NCBI GenBank assembly: GCA_022072025.1
Contig: JAJVIP010000036.1
Span: 1 to 40,229, forward strand
Direction: 5' to 3'
Length of the DNA: 40,229 bases
From: Elusimicrobiota bacterium
GTDB lineage: Bacteria; Elusimicrobiota; Elusimicrobia; F11
Part shown: positions 373 through 28,681 of the stretch, in pieces
How positions within the stretch are numbered: the stretch's first letter is position 1
How the letters are laid out: each line of letters begins with the position of its first letter
The notes under the pieces: model-generated
What the model saw: only the letters and a program-made list of their open reading frames with translations
The model's database searches: none
Told to the model about the DNA's origin: nothing
Translations under genes and position numbers: made by a program

Positions 373-1527
373 TTATTTGAGGCTGGTCGGCCAGACGTAG
401 CGGGAGACGCGGCGCTTGAGATGGACCGTGATGCCACTGCTGAGAGTGTCCACGTGGGCTTCCTCGAACCGGCTCCAGCCATTCGGCCAGTTGTGAATGA
501 TGCTGTCCGTGTCGCCAAAAATGAAGACGCTGCGCACCGATGGTGGCGAGGGCGGTGTGGCACCTTCGCCGGAGGAATACGGGATGGTATTTGTGGCGAG
601 GGTGTCGGTGGTGAGATAGGTGTCGTTGCAGACGATCTCCGGCATGTGAACGGCGGAGTAACGCGCGTCCTCCCAGCCGTCGATGAAGTCCCAGATGATC
701 GGCTCGGAGGAGCTCATCTGCTGGCCGGCGCAGGTGATGATGCGATGATACGGCTTGTCCTCCTCCAGTCCGCGATAGACGCAATCGACAGTGGCCCAGT
801 CGTTGTTGTCATCGGTCTCGGTGCCCTCGACGAGGAAGAGATTCGCGTGATCCGGATGCCGCGCGCCGGGCGCAAACTCCGCCGCCTTCATCTCGCCCGC
901 GGTCATGTTGCTCGTGATGTTGACGAAGTTCGTGCCTGCCTGCGCATCGGCGAGGGTGGTGCAGAGCTTGCCGGTCGTGGCGGACAACACGTGGAAAAAG
1001 TAAACCGTGCCGAGGCTGCTGCTGCTCTGCGCCGTGATGCCCGCGCCACCGGTGAGACGGGCAAAGACAACGCGCTGGCCGGTGCTGAATCCATGCGCGC
1101 TGGGGGTGGTGACGATGTCATCGGCCTCGGTGGCGGTGCAGGCCTTCCACGCGTGATGCCACGTGAGATAACGCACCATGCGCTCATCCCATCCGATGGC
1201 GGTGGTGCGGCGCTTGCCACGACTGAGGATCTTCGTGGGCTTGGAGTTGTCGTGACTACCCTCGGAGAGGACATCAAGAAAGTAGATGCCCGGCACGCGT
1301 CCGGCATCGCCATCGATGCAGGGCACATCCTCACGCGCCCGGACGCTGCGAATGATCATGCCGGGACGATTTGGATGCGCCTGGCCTTCGACGAGATCAT
1401 CCGGAAAATCGGCGCTCCATGTCTCCTCCAAAGAATCCACAGTGAAGCGTTCGCGTGACAGCAAAGGACGCGGATCGGAGGTGAGGAAGAGGCCGCGGCG
1501 GCCTTGAATGACGAGGAAGGGTTTCAT
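373..1527 (-). CDS. Minor tail protein, distal-tail position (384 aa)
   Basis: The gene directly follows the tape measure, with a TAATG stop-start overlap (tape measure stop 1527-1529, start ATG 1527), which fixes the start at MKPFLVIQGRRGLF. The open frame continues upstream to 1857 only in the shadow of the tape-measure gene. The position after a tape measure is that of distal-tail or lambda gpM/gpL-type proteins. The sequence is rich in beta-type stretches and aromatic residues (IIWDFIDGWEDARYSAVHMPEIV) and has no transmembrane segment. Family unrecognised; a tail-tip structural role is inferred from position only. Confidence 0.8.
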   Translation of the reverse strand: MKPFLVIQGRRGLFLTSDPRPLLSRERFTVDSLEETWSADFPDDLVEGQAHPNRPGMIIRSVRAREDVPCIDGDAGRVPGIYFLDVLSEGSHDNSKPTKILSRGKRRTTAIGWDERMVRYLTWHHAWKACTATEADDIVTTPSAHGFSTGQRVVFARLTGGAGITAQSSSSLGTVYFFHVLSATTGKLCTTLADAQAGTNFVNITSNMTAGEMKAAEFAPGARHPDHANLFLVEGTETDDNNDWATVDCVYRGLEEDKPYHRIITCAGQQMSSSEPIIWDFIDGWEDARYSAVHMPEIVCNDTYLTTDTLATNTIPYSSGEGATPPSPPSVRSVFIFGDTDSIIHNWPNGWSRFEEAHVDTLSSGITVHLKRRVSRYVWPTSLK

Positions 1528-3536
1528 TATTCGAGGAGTCCTTTTTGCAGCACTTCGAGCATTTTCTGGAACAAATTCTGGTTCGACGTGTCTCTCTTTT
1601 CCGAGTTGTCCTGCGCGGCGGCAGCACGGGAGGCTCCGACGGCCATGGCCTTGCGACCGGCGAGGCCGAAGTCGCTTTGATTGAAGCCTGCTTGCAAGGA
1701 GGACCAGGCGGAGGGGCCGCGTTGAAGCATCTCCCATTCCGACGCGCCGGACTGCAAGGCATGCCAGTCGTTGAGACCACCGAAGCCGCGACGCGAGCCG
1801 CCACCGAGGGCGCCACGACTGCGACCGGCGGCGGCGCTGAGGGTGGCCCCTTTCCATGCCTGCCCCTGGCTGTAGCCATGGATTTTGCCATCATCGACGG
1901 CGGCGGTGCTGGCGGTGAAGGAGGTGGCGCGCTGCATGTCCTGCAGGTTTTGTGCGAGCATGAGGGCCTCATCGGCGCTGACGCCAGTCTCTTTGTGGAT
2001 GCGCTCGGCTTGCTTCAGCATCTCGACCTGCTCGCCACGTCCATCGCGGCGCATCTGCGCATATTGGATCTCTTTCGCCAGCTCCTCACGGGCCAGGCGC
2101 TTGCGCTCCTGCTCCGCCTGGATGGGCTTCATGAATTCATCACCCGCGCGTTTTGCCGCCTCTTTTTCGGCATCGCGCTTTTCATCCGCGGCCTTCACGT
2201 CGGCGCGTTGCTGCGCGACGGCGTCATCCATCTGCTTTTGCAAGTTGGCGGCCTCTTCCTGCATTTGCAGGGCTTTCAAACGGACATCCTGCATGCCGAA
2301 TTTTTCCGCGCCGGCGGCCCATTGGCCCAGGCCTGCGACGGAGGGCTCATAGAACATGCCGCCCTCGCGCTGCATGCGGGCAAAGATGGCATCCTGCTGC
2401 TCGCTGAGGGCCATGTAGCGCTCCTGCGGCCCCATGGCGGCGATCTCCTGCTCACGCATACGGGCGGCGATCTCATCGGCCTTTTTGCCTGCGAGCTCGC
2501 GAGGACGCAGGGCACTCATCGTGCCGGCATCGGCGGCGAGCTGGGCCTTTACCTCGGCGGGGAGATTGGTGGCGTTGATGGCGTTGATCTGCTTCGCCAG
2601 ATCGAGCTGCCGTTGCATGGCGTCCGCCTTCTCTGTTTCACCGGCGGCGCGCAGCTCGGCAATCTCCAGCGCCTTGGCGGAGGCATCAACGAGCTGCTCC
2701 TCGATGTCCATCTGCCGCAGTTGCAAGGTCATCTGCGCATTGGAGGCAGCGATTTGCAGCTCGCGCTCCGAAACGCCCATCATGACCGATGTGGCGAGGC
2801 GACCGAGGCTCATGCCCGGACCAGCGAAGGCACCGGCGCTTTGGATCTTGGCGGCAAAGTCGCCGTAGAGCTGGGTGAGCTGCTCCACACTGCCGGCGGC
2901 GGCGGTGATTTGCTGGCTGGCGTTTTTGGCGCTGTCAGCGACGGCGCGAAAACCTTCCGCGCCCTTTTCTCCCATCAACGCAAACGCGCCGCCGAGGGCC
3001 ACTACAGCGCCGAGGATGGCACCGCTGGCACCAAAGGCACCGAGCAACTGCGAGCCCTGCTGCGCCACGATGATGCTGGCACGGGTGCCCATCTGCGCCT
3101 GGACAATGACATCCTGAAGCTGCATGGCGGCATTGCCGATGGCCAGACGGCCGCCGCCGCCACGGGCCATGCCGCCCATGGAGCCGGACTGCGCGCGCCA
3201 CTGCGCCAGCAGGGCTTCATTGCCGGTCTGCACGCCGCTGCCGCGAATGATGCTGCTCTGCCGTTGCAACACAGGGATGACCTGCTGCTCAATGGTGCGC
3301 GCATACGTTTTCGCTCCCGCGCTTGCCGTCGTCCATGGGTTGACGGCCTTGGCACGTTCTTGTTCAGCGACGAGCTTGTGATACGCAGCCGTCAAGTGTG
3401 AGACTTCGCCGGCGTTTCTGCGGGAGCCGCTGCTCAGGCGCTCCTGAAACTTTTTGATTTCGCCATCGGCGGCGGCCAGTTGCGCCTGCAACTGGCTGAT
3501 TTCGAGCCGCATGGAGGCTTCAAGAGTGCGGTTCAT
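1527..3536 (-). CDS. Tail tape measure protein (669 aa)
   Basis: Tape measure proteins set tail length and help deliver DNA. Evidence: it is the longest gene of the tail block, with a coiled-coil N-terminus (about 1-50, MRLEISQLQAQLAAADGEIKKF), the characteristic element near residues 150-210 (AMQLQDVIVQAQMGTRASII followed by a Gly/Ala-rich hydrophobic segment ILGAVVALGGAFALMG), then long Ala/Glu/Lys-rich coiled coils (residues about 250-550) and a Gly/Ser-rich tail. The start at 3536 (MNRTLEASM) overlaps the upstream stop as ATGA, so upstream in-frame codons to 3617 are not used. A length of 669 codons predicts a tail of roughly 100 nm if the usual 1.5 angstrom per residue holds. Confidence 0.9.
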   Translation of the reverse strand: MNRTLEASMRLEISQLQAQLAAADGEIKKFQERLSSGSRRNAGEVSHLTAAYHKLVAEQERAKAVNPWTTASAGAKTYARTIEQQVIPVLQRQSSIIRGSGVQTGNEALLAQWRAQSGSMGGMARGGGGRLAIGNAAMQLQDVIVQAQMGTRASIIVAQQGSQLLGAFGASGAILGAVVALGGAFALMGEKGAEGFRAVADSAKNASQQITAAAGSVEQLTQLYGDFAAKIQSAGAFAGPGMSLGRLATSVMMGVSERELQIAASNAQMTLQLRQMDIEEQLVDASAKALEIAELRAAGETEKADAMQRQLDLAKQINAINATNLPAEVKAQLAADAGTMSALRPRELAGKKADEIAARMREQEIAAMGPQERYMALSEQQDAIFARMQREGGMFYEPSVAGLGQWAAGAEKFGMQDVRLKALQMQEEAANLQKQMDDAVAQQRADVKAADEKRDAEKEAAKRAGDEFMKPIQAEQERKRLAREELAKEIQYAQMRRDGRGEQVEMLKQAERIHKETGVSADEALMLAQNLQDMQRATSFTASTAAVDDGKIHGYSQGQAWKGATLSAAAGRSRGALGGGSRRGFGGLNDWHALQSGASEWEMLQRGPSAWSSLQAGFNQSDFGLAGRKAMAVGASRAAAAQDNSEKRDTSNQNLFQKMLEVLQKGLLE

Positions 3537-4327
3537 CGGGTGGTGAGCTTGAGGTTGCCTGAGGCGAGACGTTTGAGGTATTCCGTCCACATGCGGTCGA
3601 GGCGCTCGACGCGCCATTCGTTCATGACGATGCGGAGGCGGCGGGACATGTCCTTGATGCGCGGGCCGTATTTGACCTGGTTGACGGCGGCGATCTCAAT
3701 GCTGCCGCCCTGGGTATCGACCTTGAGGCGGCCGGGAGACGCGCCGTGTTTCGTGACGCCCGCGGGCAGGCGGGCGCGCAGGGCCTCCAGGGGCTCCTGC
3801 CAGCCGGAGGCAAGCCACCAGACGCGGGATTGATGCAGCTCGATGTATTCCTCCAGCGAATCGGGATCGCTGACGAAAAAGCGGAAGTTTTTGGGGCGCT
3901 TGCGGAAGTTCCGACGGTGATGCACGCCGCCATCGAAGGGATAAAGGATGCTGCCGGTGGTGGCGCGGAGGATGTCGTTGGCGGCTTGGGTCTCGCCCTG
4001 CTTGTGATGCTTCCAGAAGGCTTTGGCGGTGTTGGCCGGGGCTTTGGCCTTGATGAGGTCCATGGCATCGCGCGGCAGGCCGTAGAGGGCCCGGATGTCG
4101 GCGGCGATTTTCGACCGCGCCTGGGCGGCGGCCTTGCCGGTGTTTTGCAAGGTGCCTGCGCCGTAGGGAGGCGTGACACCGGCGACGCCGGGCATTTTAG
4201 CGGAGCCTCCGAAACAGATCCGCGCCTCTTCTTTCCACAACGTGACCAGGTCTTTTTTCGACGTGGCGGCCATCCGCGCGAACGCCGCGCTGTGACGAGG
4301 AAAGGCGATGGCGAGGCCGTCAGACAT
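3533..4327 (-). CDS. Tail protein of unknown family upstream of tape measure (264 aa)
   Basis: Not recognised. It sits between the moron block and the tape measure and couples to the latter through an ATGA overlap. The protein is basic and soluble, with RNFRKRPKNFRFFV near residue 140 and no membrane segment or signal peptide. The start at 4327 (MSDGLAIAF) follows CCCACCCCATCC with no Shine-Dalgarno; upstream lie a TTTGACACC motif and the mixed heptamer array. In phages of this layout a tail-completion or minor tail protein can sit here; that is inference. Confidence 0.75.
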   Translation of the reverse strand: MSDGLAIAFPRHSAAFARMAATSKKDLVTLWKEEARICFGGSAKMPGVAGVTPPYGAGTLQNTGKAAAQARSKIAADIRALYGLPRDAMDLIKAKAPANTAKAFWKHHKQGETQAANDILRATTGSILYPFDGGVHHRRNFRKRPKNFRFFVSDPDSLEEYIELHQSRVWWLASGWQEPLEALRARLPAGVTKHGASPGRLKVDTQGGSIEIAAVNQVKYGPRIKDMSRRLRIVMNEWRVERLDRMWTEYLKRLASGNLKLTTR

Positions 4328-4362: not shown

Positions 4363-4432
4363 GCGGAGGGCGGAGGGCGGAGAGCGGAGGGCGGAGAGTC
4401 AGATGTGAGAGGTGAGAGGTAAGAGGTGAGAA
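4363..4432. repeat. Mixed heptamer array, ten 7-nt units
   Basis: Ten consecutive 7-nt units in one register on the plus strand: five GCGGAGR units, then gtcagat, gtgagag, gtgagag, gtaagag, gtgagaa. The order (GCGGAGR block followed by GTSAGAR block) is the same as in the array inside the ParB-like gene at 22574-22629, which lies on the opposite strand. It fills the space between the 264-aa gene and the terminator of the moron block. Confidence 0.9.
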
Positions 4433-6407: not shown

Positions 6408-7120
6408 TCACAAATCACACTCGATGCCTTGCTGCTGGATCTGGCGGATGGCGGCGGCGGTGGCGCGGAGGTGGCGGCCGATGGTGCTGCGGGAGGGATC
6501 CGGCCAGATGACGGGCTCGCCATGCAGGATGGCGGCGGCGTGGATGGCTTCATGGGCGTCTTTGAGACTGATGTTCCAGTGGCGGTCGTGATGGGTGGTG
6601 CCGGGGAGTGCCCGGGCGAGCAGGGCGTGAAACCACGCCCACTCGCCGGGCAGGGCTAGTTTCCCAAGTCGCTTTTGCGGGTGTCTTTGCCGGGACGGGG
6701 GATGACGACGCTGTCGCGATGTTCGATGCGGAGGCGATGGGCGAGGCGGACGGCGGTGATGAGCTCGGTGTCCGGGATGGCTCCGTCATCAAGCCATTGC
6801 TCAATCGTTTGATGCAAGGCCTCGGCACTGGTGGCGGCGGCACGGATGGTTTCATCATCGTGGCTGGCGAGCCACAGCACGCGGGCGGCGGCGCGCCGGA
6901 ACCGGGACCAGTTGATGAATGAATCAGGATGGCGGCGTTGATCCTCCGGCATGGCGGCGAGTTCCTGGGCGATCTGTTCCTCCAGCACCGGCAATAGCTC
7001 CAAGGGGTTGTCGATTTTGGAAATCCACGATGTTGCCTCGGTGGCGAGGGACAAGTAGTAGCACTCGCGGTCCGAGGACCAGGGGCGCAGAGGGGTGGAG
7101 AGGAAGGTGTGGGGGAACAT
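6408..7120 (-). CDS. Frameshifted tail assembly chaperone, gpGT-like fusion (237 aa)
   Basis: This is the predicted -1 frameshift product of the 154-aa gene at 6656-7120. Ribosomes slipping on G GGA AAC (6665-6659) continue from CTA into an 83-codon frame ending at TGA 6408-6410, adding LALPGEWAWFHALLARALPG and then an Ala/His-rich helical tail. The layout copies lambda gpG/gpGT: zero-frame chaperone, slippery site at its very end, longer fusion in small amounts, located just before the tape-measure region. Here the tape measure is separated from it by the inserted methyltransferase/moron block. The 83-codon extension has no start codon suited to independent expression. Confidence 0.8.
6611..6665 (-). 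promoter_or_regulatory. Programmed -1 ribosomal frameshift signal
   Basis: Slippery heptamer GGGAAAC (6665-6659, X XXY YYZ with X=G, Y=A, Z=C) in the zero frame TTG GGA AAC TAG. After an 8-nt spacer (6658-6651), a long hairpin follows: lower stem CCCGGCGAG (6650-6642) with CTCGCCCGGG (6620-6611), one bulge; upper stem GGGCGTG (6640-6634) with CACGCCC (6629-6623); loop GTTT. Spacing and geometry are those of known phage G/GT signals; lambda uses GGGAAAG. Confidence 0.88.
6656..7120 (-). CDS. Tail assembly chaperone, gpG-like (154 aa)
   Basis: Soluble, acidic, helix-rich protein between the tail-tube gene and the tape measure, ending exactly at a canonical slippery heptamer followed by TAG. 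Lambda gpG-type chaperones coat the tape measure while the tail tube polymerises. No sequence family was recognised; the call rests on position and the frameshift signal. The start at 7120 (MFPHTFLSTPLRPW) follows CTCACCTGC, part of a heptamer array, without Shine-Dalgarno. Confidence 0.8.
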   Translation of the reverse strand: MFPHTFLSTPLRPWSSDRECYYLSLATEATSWISKIDNPLELLPVLEEQIAQELAAMPEDQRRHPDSFINWSRFRRAAARVLWLASHDDETIRAAATSAEALHQTIEQWLDDGAIPDTELITAVRLAHRLRIEHRDSVVIPRPGKDTRKSDLGN

Positions 7121-7124
7121 GCAG

Positions 7125-7159
7125 GTGAGAAGTGAGAGGTGAGAAGTGAGAAGTGATTA
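7125..7159. repeat. Heptamer array GTSAGAR, five units
   Basis: Plus-strand units gtgagaa, gtgagag, gtgagaa, gtgagaa, gtgatta. The last unit contains the TAA stop codon of the 276-aa gene, and the first lies 4 nt before the start codon of the 154-aa gene, so the array is the whole intergenic spacer. Confidence 0.9.
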
Positions 7160-7987
7160 GAGGTTGAGGCTGCCGGGGGGGGCGTGGAAGTGGCGCTCGA
7201 CGGCGGCGTGGACGTGGCCTTTGGCGTTGAGGGTGATGAGGGCCTGGCGGGCGGTGCCGGCGGGATCGGTGATCAAAAGATTGGCCTGCGCGAAACGGAT
7301 CTCTTTTTTGAGCAGGGCGCGGGCGTGAAGGGAATCGTAGCCGATGACGAGGGGATGCAACGGCTGGGTGTCCTCCAAGGCGAGACGACGCGGGCCGTGC
7401 TGCGCGAAAGCGATGAGAGTGTCGAGGGAATACTGATGCACGTGGCCGGTGTCGAGACGCACGGGGCGGCCCTGAATTGGCAGGGAGTAGCGATGGGCGC
7501 CGGGGCTGCCGCTGATGCGCGGCTGGAAGCCGAGGGGCATGAGGGCGGCGGTGAGAGCCATGTCATCGCACACGCGGACGGGATGCTGTGAGGCGGGCGG
7601 TGCGTCGCGGTGGATCTGCGCGTCGTAGAACATGGGCAGGCCATCGGCATCGCGCTCTGCTTCGAGGTGGAGGTGGAGTCCCTCGGCCTGGGCCTTGGCG
7701 AGGGCGTCGTAGGCCATCTGCGCACGCATGGCGACGGCCATGAGGTGACCGGGCTCCGCCGGCCAGGTTTCATTGGGCGAGGCGTTCACAGGCCGAAGAA
7801 AACGGCTGCTGCGCCAGTGCTCGACGAGACGGCGAAGCTGGAGCTGCGGGAAACGCTGGGAGGGCGCGTCAAAGCGGACGGTGATGCGGGTTTCCCGCGA
7901 GCTGGCGTGGATGGTGGCGTGGACTTCGCCAGGGAAGCCGAGGGCGAGGGCGGCGGAGGCGAGGCGGGTGTCGGAGATTTCGAGCAT
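7157..7987 (-). CDS. Hypothetical protein of the tail block (276 aa)
   Basis: Not recognised. It lies between the tail tube/121-aa genes and the chaperone gene and is bounded on both sides by heptamer arrays. The sequence is soluble with many His residues (HLHLEAERD; HVHQYSLD; HVHAAVERHFHAPPG) and a repeated R/L-rich helical pattern. The start at 7987 (MLEISDTRLASAALALGF) follows CTCACTCTCCCCTC. A minor structural or assembly role is inferred from location. Confidence 0.7.
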   Translation of the reverse strand: MLEISDTRLASAALALGFPGEVHATIHASSRETRITVRFDAPSQRFPQLQLRRLVEHWRSSRFLRPVNASPNETWPAEPGHLMAVAMRAQMAYDALAKAQAEGLHLHLEAERDADGLPMFYDAQIHRDAPPASQHPVRVCDDMALTAALMPLGFQPRISGSPGAHRYSLPIQGRPVRLDTGHVHQYSLDTLIAFAQHGPRRLALEDTQPLHPLVIGYDSLHARALLKKEIRFAQANLLITDPAGTARQALITLNAKGHVHAAVERHFHAPPGSLNL

Positions 7988-7996
7988 GAGGGGAGA

Positions 7997-8059
7997 GTGA
8001 GAGGTCAGAGGTGAGAAGTGAGAGGTCAGAGGTGAGAAGTGAGAGGTGAGAGGTGAGAG
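7997..8059. repeat. Heptamer array GTSAGAR, nine units
   Basis: Nine uninterrupted 7-nt units on the plus strand: gtgagag, gtcagag, gtgagaa, gtgagag, gtcagag, gtgagaa, gtgagag, gtgagag, gtgagag. The first six form a repeated triplet (21-nt higher-order repeat). It fills nearly the entire gap between the stop at 8064 and the start at 7987. Variation is confined to unit positions 3 (G/C) and 7 (A/G). Confidence 0.92.
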
Positions 8060-8063
8060 GTGG

Positions 8064-8429
8064 TCAGTGCTGGGTGCTTAGTTTTTCTTCGAGGGCGCGG
8101 AGGCGTTGATCGAGGGAGCGCTCGGAGGGTGTGGGAGGACGGGGGCGGCGGCATTCTTCGACGAGGCGGTTGAAGAAGGTGGCGATGCGATCGCTGCCAT
8201 CGCAATAGGCGCGGTCGTAAATGGCGGAGAGGAGATCGTCGAGGGTGTCGCCGGGATGGAGCTGGATGTGGAGATGCGGGAAGTGCGTCTGCCGCAGGAA
8301 CGAGGGCGAGGAGGTGCCGTCATCGTGGCGGATGTCGCCTGCCTCACGGAAGCCGCGGGCGAGCAGATCGGCGTGCTCGGCATCGGTCATGCGGAGCTCG
8401 GCGTGGCGGAGGTCGAAGACGGAGGGCAT
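8064..8429 (-). CDS. Hypothetical protein of the tail block (121 aa)
   Basis: Not recognised. It follows the tail-tube gene, a common place for small tail-assembly proteins. The protein is hydrophilic, with a His-rich centre (TDAEHADLLARGF; HFPHLHIQLHPGDT) and a C-terminal helix (LDQRLRALEEKL). The start at 8429 is preceded by CTGAAACCTGAAACTCGAA, a heptamer array of the YTGAAAC class, with no Shine-Dalgarno. Confidence 0.65.
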   Translation of the reverse strand: MPSVFDLRHAELRMTDAEHADLLARGFREAGDIRHDDGTSSPSFLRQTHFPHLHIQLHPGDTLDDLLSAIYDRAYCDGSDRIATFFNRLVEECRRPRPPTPSERSLDQRLRALEEKLSTQH

Positions 8430-8448
8430 TTCGAGTTTCAGGTTTCAG
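8428..8448. repeat. Heptamer array YTGAAAC class, three units
   Basis: Plus-strand units atttcga, gtttcag, gtttcag; on the coding strand CTGAAAC CTGAAAC TCGAAAT, with the last unit running into the ATG of the 121-aa gene. Confidence 0.8.
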
Positions 8449-9021: not shown

Positions 9022-9042
9022 GCGAGAAGTGAGAGGTGACGG
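9022..9042. repeat. Short heptamer array, three units
   Basis: Plus-strand units gcgagaa, gtgagag, gtgacgg, lying between the stop of the 168-aa gene (9054) and the start of the tail-tube gene (9017). It is a short, eroded member of the GTSAGAR class. Confidence 0.7.
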
Positions 9043-10594: not shown

Positions 10595-10801
10595 TCAAAC
10601 CTGCTTTCGGAAGTAAGCGGCATGTTCGTTGCTGTAACGGCATGCGACGATGGTGATCAACTGCCAGCCATCCCGCTCCATGGTGGTGAGGATGCCGGGA
10701 AGCTCCTCGGGATGGGCAATCTTGACGGTGTGGGCCAGGGTGCTGGCAACGGACTGGAGTGATGGAGTGGTGGAGACTTGAGGTTTGGGTGCTTTGGCCA
10801 T
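10595..10801 (-). CDS. Small DUF4177-like protein (68 aa)
   Basis: Residues 33-66 (ELPGILTTMERDGWQLITIV, then an aromatic YF followed by RK) match the layout of small DUF4177-like proteins (helix, GW-x-L, strands). The role is unknown. It stands alone between two strong terminators, after the coat gene. Residues 10-18 (VSTTPSLQS) are encoded by an octamer repeat array (10755-10778), so part of the N-terminus derives from the dispersed repeat family. Its TGA stop forms part of a TTTGACACC junction motif. Confidence 0.65.
   Translation of the reverse strand: MAKAPKPQVSTTPSLQSVASTLAHTVKIAHPEELPGILTTMERDGWQLITIVACRYSNEHAAYFRKQV
10755..10778. repeat. Octamer array TGGAGTGR inside coding sequence
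   Basis: Units tggagtga, tggagtgg, tggagact, encoding residues of the 68-aa protein on the minus strand. Same words as the intergenic array at 9565-9596. Confidence 0.7.
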
Positions 10802-10817
10802 GGCGGCGGGAGGATGT

Positions 10818-10851
10818 CAAAAAAAACGGCCCGCCGGTGAGGGCGGGCCGT
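10818..10851 (-). terminator. Strong rho-independent terminator after the coat gene
   Basis: ACGGCCCGCC (10826-10835) pairs with GGCGGGCCGT (10842-10851) around a 6-nt loop, followed on the minus strand by eight U. It lies between the coat protein stop (10878) and the 68-aa gene, and the U-tract runs into the TTTTGACATCC motif. Confidence 0.92.
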
Positions 10852-10877
10852 CCAAACAACACACGAAGGATTCTTGA

Positions 10878-12265: not shown

Positions 12266-13327
12266 TCAGTCGTCCGTGAGCTTGCCGCCGGCGGCCATGA
12301 AGGCATTGCGCTCAGAATGGGGGAGTTTGTTGAAGGCGCTGCGGGCCATGACCTTGTCCTCTTTTTTGGGAGGAGGTGCGGTGACGGCTGGATTGCCACC
12401 GGCGGCACTGGCGGGGCCGTTGGTGAGCAGGGCTTTGATGTTGGCGAGCTCGGTTTCGAGGGCGGTGATCTTGGCCTTGTCGGCGGCGGTGGCGTCGGTG
12501 ATGCGCTTGCCGAAGGCGGCTTTGACGTCGGCGTCTTCGAAGTCGATGACGACGTTTTTGGATGGCGGCTGCCATGCGTCGATGGCGGTGACGATCTGGT
12601 CTTCGGTGGCGTTATCGGCAAACGCGATGCCGATCTTCTTGGCGAGGGCGAGGAGTGCTTTCATTTCGGAGGGAGTGAGTTGAGGATGAGGATCGGCGTG
12701 TGCCGGTGGTGGCGCGGAGGTGTCAAACAGGGCGGCGGGGAGCATGGTGAAAAGCGGGCTCCACTCAGCCTTGAAAGCGCGGGCCTTGGTGCTGCCATTG
12801 CTGCGGGTGGCGAAGCCTGCTTTGACGGCTTCCTCGCCGAAGAACCAAGTGCCGATCTCTGTCTTCATTTTGTCGCGGATTTCTTCCTCGGGCATGGCGA
12901 GCTTGGCGCGGTAGATGCCGATGATGCGCTCTTCAAACTGGCGGGCGAGATCGGCACCGGCTTGGAGTTGATCGGGATTACCACGAATGCCGGCGGTGAC
13001 GCGGTGGATCATGACGCGGCCATTGGCGGCGATGATGCGCTCATCGGCAGCGAGGATGATGACGGATGCCATGGAGGCGGCTGTGCCGACGATGTTCATG
13101 GTGACTTTGCCAGTGAACTCGCTGATGGCATCATAGATGCTGAGCCCGTCCTCACAGCTTCCGCCTGGACAATCGACATTGAAGGTGACGTTTTTGCCTT
13201 TGTGCGGGCGAAGGGCATCCAAGAAGGATTGCGTGCTGATGCCGAATGCGCCGATTTCGTCGAGGAGATCGATTTCGACGGTGTTGCTAGCAGAGGCGGT
13301 GATGGTGAACCATGTTTTGCGGGACAT
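12266..13327 (-). CDS. ClpP-type prohead protease with scaffold-like C-terminus, gpC-like (353 aa)
   Basis: Residues about 30-190 are a ClpP/S49-type serine protease: NVDCPGGSCEDGLSIYDAI, then nucleophile Ser in GTAASMASVI (near 87), then MIHRVTAG with the catalytic His (near 109). The C-terminal third (about 220-353) has a linker, a short coiled coil (AADKAKITALETELANIKAL) and a Lys/Asn-rich end, as in proteases with a fused scaffolding segment. The enzyme cleaves scaffold and itself during head maturation. It sits between portal and coat as in lambda. The start at 13327 follows GCGGCCACC without Shine-Dalgarno. Confidence 0.9.
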   Translation of the reverse strand: MSRKTWFTITASASNTVEIDLLDEIGAFGISTQSFLDALRPHKGKNVTFNVDCPGGSCEDGLSIYDAISEFTGKVTMNIVGTAASMASVIILAADERIIAANGRVMIHRVTAGIRGNPDQLQAGADLARQFEERIIGIYRAKLAMPEEEIRDKMKTEIGTWFFGEEAVKAGFATRSNGSTKARAFKAEWSPLFTMLPAALFDTSAPPPAHADPHPQLTPSEMKALLALAKKIGIAFADNATEDQIVTAIDAWQPPSKNVVIDFEDADVKAAFGKRITDATAADKAKITALETELANIKALLTNGPASAAGGNPAVTAPPPKKEDKVMARSAFNKLPHSERNAFMAAGGKLTDD

Positions 13328-13357
13328 GGTGGCCGCGAGATGTCAAAAGGCGGCGGA

Positions 13358-14980
13358 CTACGAACGGGCGTCCATTTCGGTGAGATCCTGTGCCACAGCT
13401 TCCGGTGAGAGGGTGCTGAGCATGGAGCTGCTGCTGCTGGTGGTGCGCTGGCCGAGGCCAAGGATGAGGGCGATGGAGGCGGGGATGGTGACCTGCTCGA
13501 TGGGCTGGCCGGTGGCGCGGTGGACGGCGTATTTGAGGAGGTCGATTTTTTGATCGATGGCGGCACGGCGGGTCATGGTGCCGTTGGCACCGGTGATCAT
13601 CTCGACGAGGTCGTCAGGGGTGATGAGGTTTTCGCCGAGCTGCTCCATTTTGGCTTTGTGATCGCGGCCGGCATCGGCGGAGGGATCGGGATCGGTGACG
13701 AAGTCGATGACGTTCCAGTCTTCGACTTGGGCGTATTTGCTGAGGGCTCCGCCGGGCATCATGGCGGTGCCGATGACTTTTTCCCAGATCCATTGGATCA
13801 AGGGGTAGAGCTTGGAGCGGAGGCCTTCGTGGGCGCGCTTTACTTGCTCGAGGAGTCCGCGGTATTCGGTGCCGCCGACTTTGCCGCGCATGAAGATCCA
13901 CTCGGGCGGGTAGCCGAACTCGAAGATGAAGGGATGGAGGAGGTCTTCGAGGATTTGCTTGAAGGGGACGCCTTCGGTGGGGTTGGTGAAGAAGTTGAAC
14001 TGCTCGTCACTGGAGAGAGGGATGAAGATGGCTCCTTCACCGATCTCGACGAAGCGACGGCCGGTGTCGGCGGCGGGATTGCCGGACTGCTCGGCGGTGA
14101 GGACCTGCTGCATGGCGTTGAGGACCTTGCCGTCTTTGGTGGTGGTGGCACCGAGGAGGGCGGCGCGGACTTTGGCGCTGTGCTTGCGGAGGGCTTTGAG
14201 GTCGAGGACGTCGAGGAGGTCCGGGCCGGCGGCGAAGATGGCGGGATCGCCGTGGTATTGATTGATGCGGCTGGGATCTTTGAGGTGGAAGACGTTGCGA
14301 TGGCCGAGCGCGTTGATGGCGGGGATGTCGATGTATTTGCCGCTGGTGAAGGCGCTGGTGTCGTCCTGATTGAGGCGGATTTTGACGAGCTGATCGAGGC
14401 CGTTGTAGAAGAGGCCGTCGAAGCAGCGCTCGGCACGGGTGTCCTTCACATCGCCATTGGTGAGCTGGTCACGGGTGATGGTCTGGAGCTGAAAAGCGCG
14501 TTTGGATTTGTCATTGAGGCTCCAGGCGAGGCCGGCGGGATCGAAGACGGGGAGGATGAAGTTTTCGCCATCGCCGAGCATGCCGGCGAGCCACATGGAC
14601 TGGAGCTGGAAGAAGGTCTGCTCTTTGCGGAGATCGACGGCGGGGGAGTCGGCCCATTTGGAAAACAATGCAGTGGCATCGCGCTGGAAGTCGGGGTTCT
14701 GGCTGATGCTTTTGGCTCCGATGCCTTTGCCGACGGCCTCGCGCGGGAGCTGTCGGCAGGCGTAACGGACCTGGGGGATGCCGTTTTCGCTTTGGAGATA
14801 ACGGGAGATTTGAACGATGTCTTTGGAGCGCTGGATGCGCTCGAGGTGCTTGTTGCTCCACGGCTGCCAGGTGGGCAGGGTGCGATAACTGCCGGAGGAC
14901 GCGGGGAGGGCGGCGTTGAGCACGGGGCTGTTGACGATGCCAGTGGTGCCGGTGATGGCGGTTTTTTTGCGGCGGGCCAT
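13358..14980 (-). CDS. Portal protein, lambda gpB-like (540 aa)
   Basis: Forms the dodecameric ring through which DNA enters and leaves the capsid. Family features of lambda-type portals: RSKDIVQISRYLQSENGIPQ near the N-terminus, LGDGENFILPVFDP near 125, FQLQTITRDQL, then NVFHLKDPSRINQYHGDP, and the conserved FGYPPEWIFMRGKVGGTEYR near 400. The start at 14980 (MARRKKTAITG) follows GAGAACAAAACC. The frame is open upstream only because it reads through the heptamer spacer (peptide NREQRTENREQ), which is not likely to be translated. It sits between the gpW-position protein and the protease, the lambda order. Confidence 0.92.
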   Translation of the reverse strand: MARRKKTAITGTTGIVNSPVLNAALPASSGSYRTLPTWQPWSNKHLERIQRSKDIVQISRYLQSENGIPQVRYACRQLPREAVGKGIGAKSISQNPDFQRDATALFSKWADSPAVDLRKEQTFFQLQSMWLAGMLGDGENFILPVFDPAGLAWSLNDKSKRAFQLQTITRDQLTNGDVKDTRAERCFDGLFYNGLDQLVKIRLNQDDTSAFTSGKYIDIPAINALGHRNVFHLKDPSRINQYHGDPAIFAAGPDLLDVLDLKALRKHSAKVRAALLGATTTKDGKVLNAMQQVLTAEQSGNPAADTGRRFVEIGEGAIFIPLSSDEQFNFFTNPTEGVPFKQILEDLLHPFIFEFGYPPEWIFMRGKVGGTEYRGLLEQVKRAHEGLRSKLYPLIQWIWEKVIGTAMMPGGALSKYAQVEDWNVIDFVTDPDPSADAGRDHKAKMEQLGENLITPDDLVEMITGANGTMTRRAAIDQKIDLLKYAVHRATGQPIEQVTIPASIALILGLGQRTTSSSSSMLSTLSPEAVAQDLTEMDARS

Positions 14981-14986
14981 GGTTTT

Positions 14987-15035
14987 GTTCTTTGTTCTCT
15001 GTTCTCTGTTCTCTGTTCGCGGTTCTCTGTTTTGG
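14987..15035. repeat. Heptamer array NNNGAAC class, six to seven units
   Basis: Plus-strand units gttcttt, gttctct, gttctct, gttctct, gttcgcg, gttctct, then a degenerate gttttgg. On the coding strand this reads AGAGAAC repeats. It fills the whole space from the stop codon of the 113-aa gene (15036) to just before the portal start (14980). Confidence 0.92.
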
Positions 15036-15377
15036 TTACGCGTCGAGGACTTCGTGCGGTGAGTAGCCGGAGGCGAAGCGGAAACCGAAGGGACGGCTGA
15101 GGGATTTGGTGACTTCGCCGGCGATCTCGCTTTCGATTTCTTCGATGGCGCGCTGCAGGGCCATGCGGCGCTGCTCGGGGCTGGAATCGCGGAACTGCGC
15201 GGAGTGGGAGGAGCCTTCGAAGGTGGAGGCGGTGACTTCGGCCCCGCTGCGATCCTCGGCGAGGAGGAGGTATTGACCGGTGAGCCACTGCTTCTGCGCC
15301 GGGAGCTCGCCGGGGTGCAACATCCGCGCATGGAAGCGGTAGTCGGAGATGAGATCGGCGATGTTGACGGCGGCCAT
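15036..15377 (-). CDS. Small head protein at the gpW position (113 aa)
   Basis: It lies between large terminase and portal, where lambda keeps the head-completion protein gpW, and like gpW it is small and helical (NIADLISDYRFHARMLHPGE; RRMALQRAIEEIESEI). It is longer than gpW (68 aa), and no sequence family was recognised, so a head-completion or terminase-accessory role is inference. The start at 15377 comes 23 nt after the terminase stop, behind TTTTTGACATC. Confidence 0.65.
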   Translation of the reverse strand: MAAVNIADLISDYRFHARMLHPGELPAQKQWLTGQYLLLAEDRSGAEVTASTFEGSSHSAQFRDSSPEQRRMALQRAIEEIESEIAGEVTKSLSRPFGFRFASGYSPHEVLDA

Positions 15378-15400
15378 GTCGGCCGGGTGATGTCAAAAAC

Positions 15401-17227: not shown

Positions 17228-17883
17228 AACGTGAGCTCGGCCATGAGGGCATCGAGCGCGGGGTTGAATTCGTTTTCCCGCAGATCCAAGATGGCCTGGC
17301 GGGCAAAATGCGGCTTTTCGGGATTGGCTCGCTGCGCGATGCGGTCGTCGAAGGTGATCATGAACGCGGCGAAGCGATGGATGGCGGCGCGGGCTTCCTC
17401 CCAGGCTGACATGGGCTGCAGTCGGCCGCTTTCGAGCTCGGATTGAACGCGACGCTGGCGGGCGAGGTGGTAGCTTTTGAGGGCGTCGGCGGCGATTTTG
17501 ACGAAACCGATGGCTGCCATGGGATCCGAGCGCTTGAGGGCCGCGTCACGCTGGGTGTTTGCCGCGACAAGACCTGTCCAGGCTTCGCATTCGGCGTATT
17601 CCTCGGGTGTCCATTCGTGGCGGGGCTTGGACATGGCTGGCGGCGCGAGGTGCACCACCTCTTCACCCGGCGCTGACTGCCCCTGCATGAACCGTGAAAG
17701 GGCGACTTTTTGCTCGGAGGTAGCTTCTTTCGCCTTCAAGGCCTCTACGCCCTGAGTCGCCACAAACGCGACATAATCCGGGTGGCGGTTTTTGGCATGA
17801 TGCTGCGCCGTCCGCAGTGAGCGGACGCCTTTTGCCGCCATGTAGAGCTTTACCAGCCCGGCTTCAGCGTGAGAGCGCGCCAT
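17224..17883 (-). CDS. Terminase small subunit (219 aa, putative)
   Basis: First gene of the late block, coupled by ATGA overlap to the large subunit. Residues 1-45 (ARSHAEAGLVKLYMAAKGVR, SLRTAQHHAKNRHPDYVAF) look like a winged-helix/HTH DNA-binding head; the rest is helical with Arg-rich stretches, as in small terminase subunits that recognise the packaging site. It is preceded by the repeat-rich non-coding region 17884-18429, a plausible cos/pac region. The start at 17883 lacks a Shine-Dalgarno; a TTTTGACATG element lies 13 nt upstream. Confidence 0.75.
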   Translation of the reverse strand: MARSHAEAGLVKLYMAAKGVRSLRTAQHHAKNRHPDYVAFVATQGVEALKAKEATSEQKVALSRFMQGQSAPGEEVVHLAPPAMSKPRHEWTPEEYAECEAWTGLVAANTQRDAALKRSDPMAAIGFVKIAADALKSYHLARQRRVQSELESGRLQPMSAWEEARAAIHRFAAFMITFDDRIAQRANPEKPHFARQAILDLRENEFNPALDALMAELTL

Positions 17884-18429
17884 GATTGCGCAAACATGTC
17901 AAAAGCGCAAAACGCAGGCTAAAAACGCAACAATTGCGCTCCTGCATTGCGCAAACCGCTTTACGCCATCACTCCCAAAAAAGCAAAGAGACGAAACACC
18001 CGAACAGACCCCCCCGGCCTCAAAAAGATTCCTTTAACCCATCACTCTCAGCGGCGCATTTTTAGCAATCATATACCAACACCTCACTTTACCCTCAAAA
18101 CCCTCAAAACCCTCAATTTCTCCCACTGAATTCCAGTTTGAGGGTTTTTGCTCACCCTCATTAAAATGGAGGCACAAACCCAGCTCACCGCGACATTGTG
18201 CCAAATCGCCCCCAAAATTTGCCCTTCTTACTTGAGGGTCTTGAGGGTTTGTCGTTTCCTTTTGCTATAAAATGAGGGTCGGAGGCGGCGGCGCGGGAGC
18301 GCATGAATCGTCGCGGCTTCGCCGCATGCTGGCGCATCTCGCGCCAGATCCAGACCGGAGGCGGCCGCCGCTCTACCTGGGGCGTTGCGATCGTCGTGGA
18401 CCGTGCCCGCGGCTCCTCTTGCGGCCTGC
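17884..18429. other. Gene-free early/late boundary: candidate origin or packaging region
   Basis: This 546-bp stretch holds no convincing gene. It contains, from left to right, several GCGCAA/TTGCGC words near the terminase start (17886-17955), an AT-rich segment (about 17960-18280) with eight ACCCTCA/TGAGGGT iterons, and a GC-rich segment with short hairpins (CTGGCGC-5 nt-GCGCCAG near 18330). Lambda-like phages place cos just upstream of the small terminase gene, and iteron clusters beside a replicative helicase gene often mark origins; either or both could apply. Confidence 0.6.
18091..18279. repeat. Iteron cluster ACCCTCA/TGAGGGT, eight copies
   Basis: Three tandem 9-nt copies, ACCCTCAAA, ACCCTCAAA, ACCCTCAAT (18091-18117), then TTTGAGGGT inverted (18137-18145), ACCCTCATT (18154-18162), two tandem inverted CTTGAGGGT (18231-18248) and ATGAGGGT (18272-18279). 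Four copies point each way, giving a roughly symmetric cluster in AT-rich DNA. This suits binding of an initiator or small terminase. Confidence 0.85.
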
Positions 18430-20919: not shown

Positions 20920-21016
20920 AAACTCTTCCTCCTCTTTGGTTGGTTGTCTCAGTTGCTCGTTTCCAAATTTCAAAAAAATCCCCTGCCCCATCCGCACCGC
21001 GTCAAATCAGCCGCAC

Positions 21017-21050
21017 CTCTCACTTCTCACGTCTCACATTTCACACTCAC
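21017..21050. repeat. Heptamer array GTSAGAR on the minus strand, crossing a stop codon
   Basis: Plus-strand units ctctcac, ttctcac, gtctcac, atttcac, plus a 6-nt remnant; on the minus strand gtgaaat, gtgagac, gtgagaa, gtgagag. The array encodes the last seven residues (VSVKCET) and the stop codon of the primase gene, then continues into the spacer. Confidence 0.85.
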
Positions 21051-22127
21051 CGGCACCCTGTCCCCGATGCACTCCCCATACCTCGCCTCCGGGTTGAAAT
21101 AGATCAGCCGCTGACACCGCGCCCCCTGCTCGAACGGCACAAACTGCCCGTCCTTCATCTTCCCCTCCCGCCACGTGTTCGGCATCCGCATCGCCGCCGT
21201 CGGATTGCTCAGACTCTGCGGATCAAACCCCAGCGCCGTCATCACCTCACGCGCCGCCGTGCGGATTCGCGTGAACTCATCATAACTCTCCGCATCCACC
21301 CGCACCAGCGCATGCAGACTCCGCCCCGCACTCGTCGTGATCGCCACCACCGGCATCCGCACCTGCGCCAGCGCATTCAGCCACTCCTCCTGCGGCGCTT
21401 CGTCCGATTCCCACAGCATATACCGCCATGCCACCACACTCCTCATCGTCCGCCTGCTCAGCGTCGTCTTCCCGCTAACCGGATGCCACTTACCGTCGCA
21501 CGGCTGGATCATCATCACACATCCTTCGCGACTCCGCTTCGGCCCCTCCTTCACCCGCTGCGCCCGCTGGTCCGGATTCTTCCCCAGCGCAAACCACGCC
21601 CCACGCCAGCGCATGTAGTCCCCCACGCTCCGCATCGCCGTAAAACACATCACCATCTCATCATGCCCATACAGCGCATCGATGAAGGCACCGCACTCCA
21701 CCTTCCCCGGATCAAACGCCGAGCGCTCCCGCAGCCAGGCAAAATCACACCGCCACTCCGGACGTTGGATCGCCTTCAGCTTCACCGCGTCAAACTTCAC
21801 CTTCTCTTTCGACTTCGCCGCCGGCACATAGATCGGCCGCTCCGGCCCGCCCTCCCCATCCACCAGATACCCCTGCGGAAACCGCTGCGGACTCCGAAAC
21901 ACCGAGCGCACCTTGTGCTGCAGATCCCGCTCCGTCCACTTCTCCCCCAGCCTTGCATTGTATTCATTCAGCACCATCCAGCACTCCGACTCCGTCAGCC
22001 CCTTCGCCCCCCCAAAGCCCCAAAAGATCGAGCACACCACCCGAAACGTCGTCGCATGCCCCCCCTGTCCCGAAATCGCATCCGGACAAGCCGCCACAAA
22101 TCGCCTCACACGTTCGATCAGTTCCAT
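21027..22127 (-). CDS. Putative primase (archaeo-eukaryotic primase-like) (366 aa)
   Basis: The N-terminus (MELIERVRRFVAACPDAISG then QGGHATTFRVVCSIFWGFGL-type) matches the helical domain often attached to phage and plasmid primases (CPDAISGQGGH...TERDLQHKVRS). The region VVAITTSAGRSLHALVRVDA carries the S-x-H motif II plus a following Asp of AEP primases; LGFDPQSLSNPTAAMRMPNT is typical of the C-terminal part. A clear DxD motif I was not found, so activity is uncertain. The start at 22127 follows GAGAACACG. The frame upstream reads only repeat. Role: priming phage replication with the adjacent helicase. Confidence 0.7.
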   Translation of the reverse strand: MELIERVRRFVAACPDAISGQGGHATTFRVVCSIFWGFGGAKGLTESECWMVLNEYNARLGEKWTERDLQHKVRSVFRSPQRFPQGYLVDGEGGPERPIYVPAAKSKEKVKFDAVKLKAIQRPEWRCDFAWLRERSAFDPGKVECGAFIDALYGHDEMVMCFTAMRSVGDYMRWRGAWFALGKNPDQRAQRVKEGPKRSREGCVMMIQPCDGKWHPVSGKTTLSRRTMRSVVAWRYMLWESDEAPQEEWLNALAQVRMPVVAITTSAGRSLHALVRVDAESYDEFTRIRTAAREVMTALGFDPQSLSNPTAAMRMPNTWREGKMKDGQFVPFEQGARCQRLIYFNPEARYGECIGDRVPVSVKCET

Positions 22128-22130
22128 CGT

Positions 22131-22190
22131 GTTCTCAGTTCTCAGTTCACAGTTCCCCGTCAATCCAGTCATCCAGGTCACCGCGGTCAC
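22131..22190. repeat. Composite array: four heptamers plus three and a half nonamers
   Basis: Plus-strand heptamers gttctca, gttctca, gttcaca, gttcccc (22131-22158), then 9-nt units gtcaatcca, gtcatccag, gtcaccgcg and gtcac (22159-22190). It runs from the TGA stop of the ParB-like gene to 3 nt before the primase ATG. The composition and order equal those of the array at 25774-25840. Confidence 0.92.
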
Positions 22191-23644
22191 TCCGCCTCTC
22201 TCACCCCCAGCGTCTCCTCCACCACCCCCAGCGCCTCCTCATCCGCCGCGCACAGCGCCCGCGCCACACAGGCCAGCAGGCACCAGCGCAGCCCCTTGCG
22301 ATGCACCCCATCGCGATTCAGCTCGCCCATGATGCTCGCATATACCTCCCGCGGCAGCACCTCCGCCAGCGCCTCCCATTGCGTCCCCATCAGCGCCTCC
22401 CAGAGACCATTCTGCATCGCCGCCGCCGGCTTCAGCATCAGCGCCCCATGCACCTTTCGCCACCGCACCTCATCAAAGCCAGCATCCGCCAGCTCCTCAC
22501 GCTGCAAAGCCCGTTCACCCAGTTCATCATCCACCGGCAGATCCTTGCCAGCCCCCGAGAAATCACCATCCACCTCTGACGTCTCACTTCTCACCTCTGA
22601 CTCTCCGCCCTCCGCCCTCCGCCCTCCGCTCTTCCCCCCCCGCGCCTTCAGCACACGCACGTCACTCATCGAGTCCGCATCCCGCACCGCGCTCACCTTC
22701 ACCAGCAGCACATGCTTTTCCGTCCGCGCCGGAGCCGGAGCCACATGCCACGGCACCCCCAGGCACCGCGCCAGATCACCCCACGTCATCGGCTCCCCCG
22801 GATTCACCAGCATCGAGGCCTCAATGTGCTCCTCGCACATCACAAACGCCGTCTGCGGCACCGCCTCGCTCATCACGAATTGCTCCCGGTCCTCCCACGC
22901 CACCACATCCACCGCCGTCGCGTCCATCCCACCCGCCACCAACTTCCGCTTCACCTTCGGAGCCAGCACCGCCCACTCCTTCCGCCAGCGCTCCGGCTTC
23001 AGGAATTGGTTTTCGATCCACACCCGCGCCTGCGCCTCCGTCATCGGCTCCTGCGTGATCGGATGGCACAGCATGTCGTCCATCGCCAGCTCCATCTGCT
23101 CCTTCGAAAGCTGCCGCATCAGCCCCGCCGTCCCCAGCGCCAGCTTCCCTTTATAAACCGCCTCCTGCACCCGATGCGGCAGCGTCCCCAGGTCCAGGTA
23201 AAGCTGCACCGTCTCCGCACCGCGATGCATCACGCCGATCAAACGCTCCTTCTCAATCCCCATCCCCATCGCCGTGCGACACGCCATCGCCAGCTCCCGC
23301 GCATCAAACGGGTCCGCCCCGTTCTGCATCGTGATCAAATGCAGAAACGCCTCATTCTCATCAAAATCCCACACCTTGCACCACAGCGCCTCCAGGCCCA
23401 GCCGTGCCGCCGCCTCCCGCCGCCGATGCCCCTGCATCAATCGCATCACCCCCTGCCCATCGCGGAAAACATGCACATCCTCCCGGATCCCCTCATGTCT
23501 CAGTTGCTCCGTAAACGCCTCCATCTCCCGCAGCTCCCCGCCCCGCGGATTCCGCTCCCAGGGTTGAATCAAATGCAGCGCAATCCTCGCCCGCTGCGGT
23601 TCCATCGTTGTCGTGTTCGTGTTCGTGTTCATCGTGTTCATCAT
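22187..23644 (-). CDS. ParB/Spo0J-like protein (up to 485 aa)
   Basis: Residues about 18-90 form a ParB N-terminal domain: LIQPWERNPRGGE, EAFTEQLRHEGI, VFRDGQGVMRLMQGHRRREA with the GHRR box, then a helical DNA-binding region. In phages such proteins may act in partition, transcription or as nucleases. The N-terminus is ambiguous: MNTMNTNTNTTTM is encoded by 6- and 9-nt repeats, and MEPQRARIAL at 23605 may be the true start. Residues about 339-357 (GGRRAEGGESEVRSETSEV) are encoded by a heptamer array (22574-22629), so a repeat has entered the reading frame in the linker before the C-terminal domain. Confidence 0.8.
   Translation of the reverse strand: MMNTMNTNTNTTTMEPQRARIALHLIQPWERNPRGGELREMEAFTEQLRHEGIREDVHVFRDGQGVMRLMQGHRRREAAARLGLEALWCKVWDFDENEAFLHLITMQNGADPFDARELAMACRTAMGMGIEKERLIGVMHRGAETVQLYLDLGTLPHRVQEAVYKGKLALGTAGLMRQLSKEQMELAMDDMLCHPITQEPMTEAQARVWIENQFLKPERWRKEWAVLAPKVKRKLVAGGMDATAVDVVAWEDREQFVMSEAVPQTAFVMCEEHIEASMLVNPGEPMTWGDLARCLGVPWHVAPAPARTEKHVLLVKVSAVRDADSMSDVRVLKARGGKSGGRRAEGGESEVRSETSEVDGDFSGAGKDLPVDDELGERALQREELADAGFDEVRWRKVHGALMLKPAAAMQNGLWEALMGTQWEALAEVLPREVYASIMGELNRDGVHRKGLRWCLLACVARALCAADEEALGVVEETLGVREAE
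22574..22629. repeat. Mixed heptamer array inside the ParB-like gene, eight units
   Basis: On the minus strand: three GCGGAGG, one GCGGAGA, then GTCAGAG, GTGAGAA, GTGAGAC, GTCAGAG. It has the same two-part order as the intergenic array at 4363-4432 but lies on the opposite strand and inside a coding frame. Confidence 0.9.
23605..23644. repeat. AACACG repeat at the start of the ParB-like gene
   Basis: On the minus strand ATGAACACG occurs twice, then AACACG twice and ACAACG, leading to ATGG at 23605. It encodes the MNTMNTNTNTTT peptide if translation starts upstream and makes the true start uncertain. Confidence 0.75.
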
Positions 23645-23677
23645 TTCAAGTTTCAGGTTTCAGGTTTTCAGTTTCCC
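23643..23677. repeat. Heptamer array YTGAAAC class, five units
   Basis: Plus-strand units atttcaa, gtttcag, gtttcag, gttttca, gtttccc. It fills the spacer from the stop codon of the helicase-methyltransferase gene (23678) into the first ATG of the ParB-like gene. Confidence 0.9.
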
Positions 23678-25012: not shown

Positions 25013-25770
25013 TCCACCACCCCGCTTTCCATCTTCACCGCGCTCGAACGGACCGCGGGCACTCCTGCCCGCTTCGGTGCATCCTTCCTCGCCCGGTTCC
25101 TCTTCCCCCGCATCGCCACGCTCAGCGCCTCCCGGCAGTGCTGCCGTTTCATAAACCAAAACTCCCCCGTCCCTTTGCGACCGCTCACCCGCTGCGCCCG
25201 GCGCACCATCTCCAAAACGAGGCTCTTCATCGCCGCGCTGATCGCGCTCCGCTTGTTCGTCGCCGTCAGCCCGATCGCTTGCCCCATCGTCGCAAAACTC
25301 CGCGCGATCACCGGCCGCACGCTTTCATCCGGCACAAACGCATACACCAAGCACAGCGCCCGCTTCCCCACCTCCCGCTCGCTCCAGCCATTTGCCGTCA
25401 GCAGCTCCACCATCAGCCGGCCGCTCACCGGCTCCCACTCGATCCCCGGGCACCGCGCCATCACCCCGCGCACCTGATCCCAATCCCGGCGGCCGTGCCA
25501 CAGATCCCGGCACAGCAGATCCGGAGCCATATACGACACCACCACCGCCAGCCGGTCCCGGATCTCCCGCGTCGACGTCACCCCCTGCGTGATCGCCATC
25601 ACCATCGAAAGCAAACACCGCGCCCGCGCCATCCCATCCCCATTCCGCATTCCGCATTCCTCCACCTCCATCAGCAGCTCATCCGGCGCGCGACCGTGCA
25701 GCGCATCAAAACCCAGGTCAAACGCCTCCTCCTGCGCGATGTCATGCAGCTCATTGCTAAAAGGTTCCAT
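25009..25770 (-). CDS. Hypothetical early protein (253 aa)
   Basis: Not recognised. A helical, soluble protein with Cys-containing segments (SYMAPDLLCRDLWHGRRDW; LTATNKRSAISAAMKSLVLE) and a basic tail (MRGKRNRARKDAPKRAG) that could bind nucleic acid. It is coupled to the helicase-methyltransferase gene by GTGA overlap, suggesting a shared process. The start at 25770 (MEPFSNELHDIAQEEAF) lies 3 nt after a composite repeat array (GAGAACACC-ATG). Confidence 0.7.
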   Translation of the reverse strand: MEPFSNELHDIAQEEAFDLGFDALHGRAPDELLMEVEECGMRNGDGMARARCLLSMVMAITQGVTSTREIRDRLAVVVSYMAPDLLCRDLWHGRRDWDQVRGVMARCPGIEWEPVSGRLMVELLTANGWSEREVGKRALCLVYAFVPDESVRPVIARSFATMGQAIGLTATNKRSAISAAMKSLVLEMVRRAQRVSGRKGTGEFWFMKRQHCREALSVAMRGKRNRARKDAPKRAGVPAVRSSAVKMESGVVE

Positions 25771-25773: not shown

Positions 25774-25840
25774 GTTCTCAGTTCTCCGTTCGTGGTTCGT
25801 CGTTGCTCGTCATTCAGGTCAGTCCGGTCAATCAGGTCAC
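25774..25840. repeat. Composite array: five heptamers plus three and a half nonamers
   Basis: Plus-strand heptamers gttctca, gttctcc, gttcgtg, gttcgtc, gttgctc, then nonamers gtcattcag, gtcagtccg, gtcaatcag and gtcac. The terminal gtcac contains the TGA stop of the 84-aa gene, and the other end lies 3 nt before the ATG of the 253-aa gene. Same architecture as 22131-22190. Confidence 0.92.
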
Positions 25841-28545: not shown

Positions 28546-28681
28546 CGTCGTGTTGCTTCGTTGCTGTGATTTCAAACTTCCTCGTCTCCCAAAAAGGTCC
28601 CGCCTGCGCCCGCGCTCCCCTGGGGCATCCATCGTGGTGATGCCGAACATCAGACGCGGCGGGAAAACTCCGCCCCTCCCC

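Follow-up and report, generated by a model that had tools for sequence, protein, structure and literature searches.

Arrays of seven-nucleotide units at the gene junctions of a phage genome and its relatives

Previous surveys, as cited in PMC4679880 and PMC4692102, indicated that heptanucleotide long simple sequence repeats are over-represented in bacterial genomes (Mrazek and colleagues 2007), and according to the same two accounts earlier authors suggested that the 7-nt step reflects the length of DNA held by the polymerase. TAACTGA direct repeats have been described in marine Beggiatoaceae, cyanobacteria, and Bacteroidetes (MacGregor 2015, PMC4679880), GGGNATC and GGGGAYT heptamer repeats in Xanthomonas and Nostoc (Rehm and colleagues 2015, PMC4692102), and STRR heptanucleotides in filamentous cyanobacteria, for which three tandem heptanucleotides are mentioned in Calothrix (PMC4692102). 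Units of 7 nt dominate the intergenic repeats of many bacteria. A search of mainly open-access journal papers gave no earlier description of arrays of this kind in a family of phages, and a search for heptanucleotides together with Verrucomicrobia returned nothing.

Here we describe arrays of this kind in a phage contig of 40,229 nt (the window, i.e., the whole stretch of DNA that was analysed). The two ends of the window have 127 exact bases in common, which indicates that it represents a circular or circularly permuted phage genome of 40,102 bp. It has genes for a terminase, a portal, a P22-like coat, and a Clp-type head protease, and further encodes two tyrosine integrases, a sigma factor (27730–28650), and two DNA methylases. 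The terminase is 78–82% identical to those of IMG/VR contigs and 30% identical to that of Akkermansia phage Moulinsart; a scan for relatives of the ORF at 1527–3617 found none. The GC content of the window is 62.6%, compared to 39–59% in the sampled readable contigs of its bin (G000), and GTSAGAR triplets occur in this bin only on the window contig and in 0 of 40 relatives. Because of this GC mismatch and the confinement of the triplets to the phage contig, the binned organism was set aside as the phage host; the bin is probably not the host, and the phage contig is probably misbinned. Other contigs of the bin (sampled loci L122–L141) carry a few heptamer arrays of their own, with the unit GTACTTG.

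The circular phage genome contains at least 10 clear 7-nt arrays, which are listed here with the weaker ones.

4363–4432, plus strand: composite of five GCGGAGR units (4363–4397) followed by five GTSAGAR-type units (4398–4432)
7125–7156, plus strand: GTSAGAR, filling the gap from the stop of ORF 7157–7987 to the start of ORF 6656–7120 (both minus strand)
7988–8063, plus strand: GTSAGAR, roughly 10 units showing a higher-order repeat of 21 nt, stop-to-start between ORFs 8064–8429 and 7157–7987 (minus strand)
8428–8447, minus strand: TGAAACY, two to three units at the start of ORF 8064–8429 (minus strand), after a hairpin
9022–9035, plus strand: GTSAGAR, weak, two units
14984–15032, minus strand: NNNGAAC, between the connector (15036–15377) and portal (13358–14980) genes
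21014–21045, minus strand: GTSAGAR, oppositely oriented and extending over the end of the primase-like ORF 21027–22190
22131–22155, minus strand: GAACTGA, between the ParB-like and primase-like genes
22571–22629, minus strand: the composite again (GCGGAGR followed by GTSAGAR), read in frame within the ParB-like ORF
23643–23669, minus strand: TGAAACY, between ORF 23678–25159 and the ParB-like start
25637–25660, minus strand: GGAATGC, inside ORF 25009–25770, missing from the first-pass annotation of this DNA
25774–25805, minus strand: NNNGAAC, upstream of ORF 25009–25770
27216–27242, plus strand: TGAAACY, degenerate, inside ORF 27194–27733
27580–27599, plus strand: TGAAACY, degenerate, inside ORF 27194–27733
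30389–30408, plus strand: TGAAACY, degenerate, adjoining the stop of the integrase ORF 30410–31597
37544–37570, minus strand: TGAAACY at the start of the tail-like ORF 35139–37550, filling the gap to ORF 37580–37939
40054–40229, plus strand: GTSAGAR (40054–40123), then the rest of the 127-bp overlap with 1–127

The last array crosses the circular join, and positions 1–21 are therefore part of it. Junctions hold nine of the arrays, whereas one is part of the reading frame of the ParB-like ORF and a few weak ones lie in ORFs; by the ORF calls, those at 7125, 7997, 14984, 22131, 23643, 37551, and 40054 run exactly or nearly exactly from stop to start. The first-pass annotation had described the arrays as intergenic linkers, often spanning precisely this distance; the array at 22571–22629 is not a linker, and those at 27215 and 27579 are likewise inside ORFs. 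Units of the GTSAGAR, GAAC, and TGAAAC classes occur in both orientations relative to the genes of the window. The composites at 4363 and 22571 have an identical internal boundary, GCGGAG-AGTCAGA, with the 22571 copy inverted; translated in frame, the latter lies in a variable linker of the ParB-like protein that is of low complexity in a relative too. The 4363 array separates a terminator hairpin from the TTTGACA box of the gene at 3533–4327 (minus strand), and fold prediction suggests that it is itself unstructured, adjoining a strong hairpin.

These arrays consist of tandem 7-nt units beyond chance, lie mostly outside coding genes, and vary by whole units between close relatives; by such sequence criteria, they belong to the bacterial heptanucleotide repeats. 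They resemble the repeats surveyed by Mrazek and colleagues, as cited, in favouring 7-nt units and in being mostly intergenic, and polymerase-linked slippage has been proposed for the bacterial ones; unlike those surveys, which in the citing accounts concern bacterial chromosomes, the present case is a phage family, i.e., a phage-borne instance of a known bacterial DNA habit. TAACTGA repeats are likewise heptamer direct repeats, many of them just upstream of starts, and mixed heptamers are known from Microcystis (PMC4679880). However, Beggiatoaceae have one fixed unit, whereas the phages have several per genome and many across relatives, and no single unit dominates the window (GTSAGAR, GCGGAGR, GAACNNN, and TGAAACY). 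The GGGNATC and GGGGAYT repeats are also degenerate at set positions, intergenic, and variable in unit number and sequence between close relatives; unlike these G-quadruplex formers, most phage units lack G-rich runs, and runs of at least three G appear only where GCGGAGG units abut. STRR repeats, likened here by unit length, are heptanucleotide tandem repeats too, but belong to cyanobacterial chromosomes and comprise few units, and the present arrays lie on a contig whose terminase, portal, and coat matches mark it as phage. The repeats of Borg elements (PMC9879509) are similarly fast-evolving and extrachromosomal and can add disordered protein segments (compare the in-frame array at 22571); Borgs, however, are huge linear archaeal elements.

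The arrays are far more numerous than chance would produce. The window contains 11 period-7 segments with a score of at least 12, compared to a mean of 0.0 in 20 Markov shuffles and to 0–6 segments for other periods in the same scan. In 2,237 bp of junction sequence there are 9 arrays, against a mean of 0.09 (0.087) and a maximum of 1 over 300 dinucleotide shuffles and 0–1 arrays of periods 4–6 and 8–12; these junctions were picked partly with the arrays in view, which biases the count towards arrays, and the whole-window counts, free of this bias, are the cleaner test. GTSAGAR doublets (30 vs. 0.17 expected), GAAC triplets (10 vs. 0.15), and TGAAAC doublets with up to two mismatches (18 vs. 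1.6) are all in excess in the window. The six YTGAAAC loci are significant as a set and singly weak, mostly with 2–4 degenerate units (e.g., 8428, 27215, 27579, and 30388); the array at 9022 has two units. Thus, the units that the first-pass annotation had described were present at all of its loci, the proposed family of in-register heptamer arrays with several unit classes was borne out, and shuffled sequence of the same composition did not yield comparable numbers of in-register 7-mers. Period 7 is dominant and not exclusive, as arrays of period 9 also occur in the window (25809–25839); their unit, GTCANTCNG, recurs in relatives, e.g., in the portal-protease gap of L045.

Arrays were then counted in 101 phage sequences, comprising the window and 100 loci retrieved by four phage genes. 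Period 7 accounts for 46 distinct arrays, compared to 0–20 for the other periods from 4 to 15, the next being 14 (20 arrays, a multiple of 7), 9 (17), and 6 (14). The units of the relatives are mostly unlike those of the window. For example, different relatives have GAACNNN, TCTCACN, NNNNTTC, CACTGAG, a 9-nt unit, or a short non-repetitive sequence between connector and portal. The ParB-primase junction has a GAACTGA class common to the window and L079, in which the unit order differs. Close relatives differ by 59 distinct indels of 5 nt or more, and 22 of these are multiples of 7, at least three of which, 21 nt long, look coding. Indels within arrays mostly comprise whole units; the CCTTCAT arrays of L034 and L049 differ in length by 63 nt. 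At matching sites in contigs of separate metagenomes, arrays have the same unit in differing number. Of the features that the first-pass annotation had proposed to compare at homologous junctions, the presence of period-7 arrays with varying unit number was found in relatives, and unit identity often differs at the same junction. With both properties shifting between close relatives at fixed junctions, this phage family offers a small, fast-evolving system in which to measure the process. The portal-protease gap of L027, L036, L048, and L067 carries different hairpins at one conserved junction, two of which are made up of inverted heptamers.

A genome scan for four GTSAGAR units in tandem identified at least 120 stretches of named genomes in many phyla, with Bacteroidota, Verrucomicrobiota, Cyanobacteria, Acidobacteria, Nitrospirae, Chloroflexi, Planctomycetes, and others among the matches listed. 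The 853 kb around these sites, selected for having one array, contain 155 arrays of other units with period 7 and at most 20 of any other period from 4 to 13. Stretches that were not selected for arrays agree in part with this enrichment: 200 kb each of G284, G299, and G293 contain 33, 16, and 2 period-7 arrays, respectively, and 100 kb each of G291 and G242 contain 12 and 0. The first-pass annotation had set the phage arrays apart from known bacterial heptamers, a distinction that is not supported, given the same GTSAGAR unit in many phyla with many other 7-nt units around it. The period is common to 161 unit classes of 1,172 possible, which weakens explanations resting on one recognised sequence. 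Within genomes, 131 of 827 pairs share units, compared to about 41 in letter-permuted controls, and 9 of 44 pairs do so in the window, compared to about 1; units within a genome are thus alike about three times more often than in controls, which points to copying between loci. Arrays in convergent gaps outnumber those in divergent gaps (21 vs. 7), so some positional constraint may exist, and the units in bacterial tandem gaps lie in both orientations (38 vs. 28); these gap and orientation counts are weak, as the gene caller used for the host loci was crude and placed half of the arrays inside ORFs, many of them probably spurious. Several candidate properties of the units were rejected: low structure (mean fold energy is slightly weaker than that of permuted units, and 81 of the 161 are less structured), a stop-codon or start-codon role (most sense units lack a stop), and a strand-specific function (both orientations are seen in the window and in bacterial gaps).

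These results probably reflect bacterial heptanucleotide repeats carried by phages, which grow and are trimmed in 7-nt steps, are occasionally copied between loci, and are tolerated as spacer. An array would be seeded by a short chance or copied sequence in a gap between functional elements, would grow and shrink by one or a few units through slippage or unequal recombination, would collect point mutations at a fixed phase, and would at times be copied elsewhere in its genome. Since a step of 7 nt changes the reading frame, selection would presumably exclude most arrays from genes and leave them as spacer, which may be their only role. Among the results, it is the unit-step indels that point to slippage as the copying step. 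Slippage alone does not account for a period of 7 over 5, 6, 8, or 10, nor for the phase held in strongly degenerate arrays, and the sharing of units within a genome requires ectopic copying besides. Slippage or unequal recombination together with copying between loci nevertheless fits as the reading that needs the least invention. A copying process that spreads and edits units had been among the suggestions of the first-pass annotation, and whole-unit indels and the composite shared by 4363 and 22571 fit adding, removing, and copying.

The same annotation had also suggested translation-initiation leaders and linkers for module exchange. As leaders, the arrays would be unstructured 5′ regions, free of Shine-Dalgarno sequences, that aid ribosome start, with a 7-nt step matching an RNA-binding (e.g., cold-shock) protein. 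Several arrays do end only a few bases from a start codon, the 4363 array is predicted to be unstructured beside its hairpin, and such a role has been proposed for TAACTGA repeats by MacGregor (PMC4679880). The leader role is nonetheless unlikely and fits badly with units in both orientations in the window and in bacterial tandem gaps, with arrays inside genes or behind convergent genes, and with orthologous genes that lack arrays or have unrelated units; moreover, these phages have a start-proximal element of another kind, the box TTGACA-N13-ATG. One unit at many junctions of a genome, and a composite present twice, would supply the short homologies by which phages could exchange gene modules, but arrays also occur at junctions whose flanking genes remain adjacent across relatives, and relatives often have no common unit at an array junction, making this role very unlikely. 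The arrays are thus probably not a new linker or leader system.

That the period is fixed and the sequence free would also be expected of a dedicated enzyme, an error-prone or hairpin-copying polymerase or a transposase, writing 7-nt units regardless of sequence, and two Bacteroidota genomes have palindromes with mirrored heptamer arms. Arrays written by a reverse transcriptase would have a linked or co-occurring RVT_1 domain, and the first-pass annotation had proposed to look for this enzyme or a transposase, but no RVT_1 was found in the array-bearing genomes G299, G300, G293, and G285, and the phage proteins scanned gave no RVT_1 or transposase Pfam match. Y1_Tnp is present in 10 of 11 genomes, two of which gave few or no arrays when small samples of them were scanned, and is not discriminating; both enzymes were rejected as linked candidates for want of a discriminating pattern in the 11 genomes, ancestry ignored. 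We consider a dedicated enzyme quite improbable, and assign an equally low probability to a DNA-copying activity shared by bacteria and phages that duplicates DNA in 7-nt steps whatever the sequence, at least partly via hairpin intermediates. Such an activity, if real, would leave both heptamer arrays at junctions and mirrored palindrome arms, and phages would move its products between hosts. Short-read assembly can collapse or expand tandem repeats, but an artefact is extremely improbable given the same-unit arrays of differing unit number at matching places in separate metagenomes, and a read far exceeds the length of an array of two to five units.

The start-proximal box has the form TTTGACAY-N12-ATG on the minus strand of the window (e.g., 10799–10821, 13325–13347, 15375–15397, and 17881–17903), and one example stands behind a hairpin.

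10799–10853, minus strand: terminator-like hairpin that leads into TTTTTTGACAT-N12-ATG

In the window, TTGACA is confined to the coding strand, with 15 occurrences. Of the 389 TTGACA sites in the phage relatives, 145 have an ATG exactly 19 nt from their first base, compared to about 5.5 per other offset, although the loci are related and overlapping and the sites are not independent events; in the bacterial sets and the other viral sets that were tested, TTGACA-N13-ATG stays close to background. The box may act as a promoter or as a start signal of the phage, which has its own sigma factor gene.

Dispersed palindromes were observed in two bacterial genomes. In a Saprospiraceae MAG (G300; L162 and L435–L463), a palindrome of about 69 nt, GTAGAGTACACC...GGTGTACTCTAC, is present in 14 copies. 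Most of these have inverted heptamer arrays on both sides, as two arms that are mirror images down to their unit variants. The arms are 85–100% identical over 19–80 nt within a copy and differ between copies, and most of them are heptamer arrays. Hymenobacter piscis (G299; L157 and L405–L431) has REP-like pairs with CATCCTGAGCGNAGCGAAGGAYC, which matches the whole genome 87 times in forward and 85 times in reverse orientation, and a few copies of these pairs have mirrored repeat arms.
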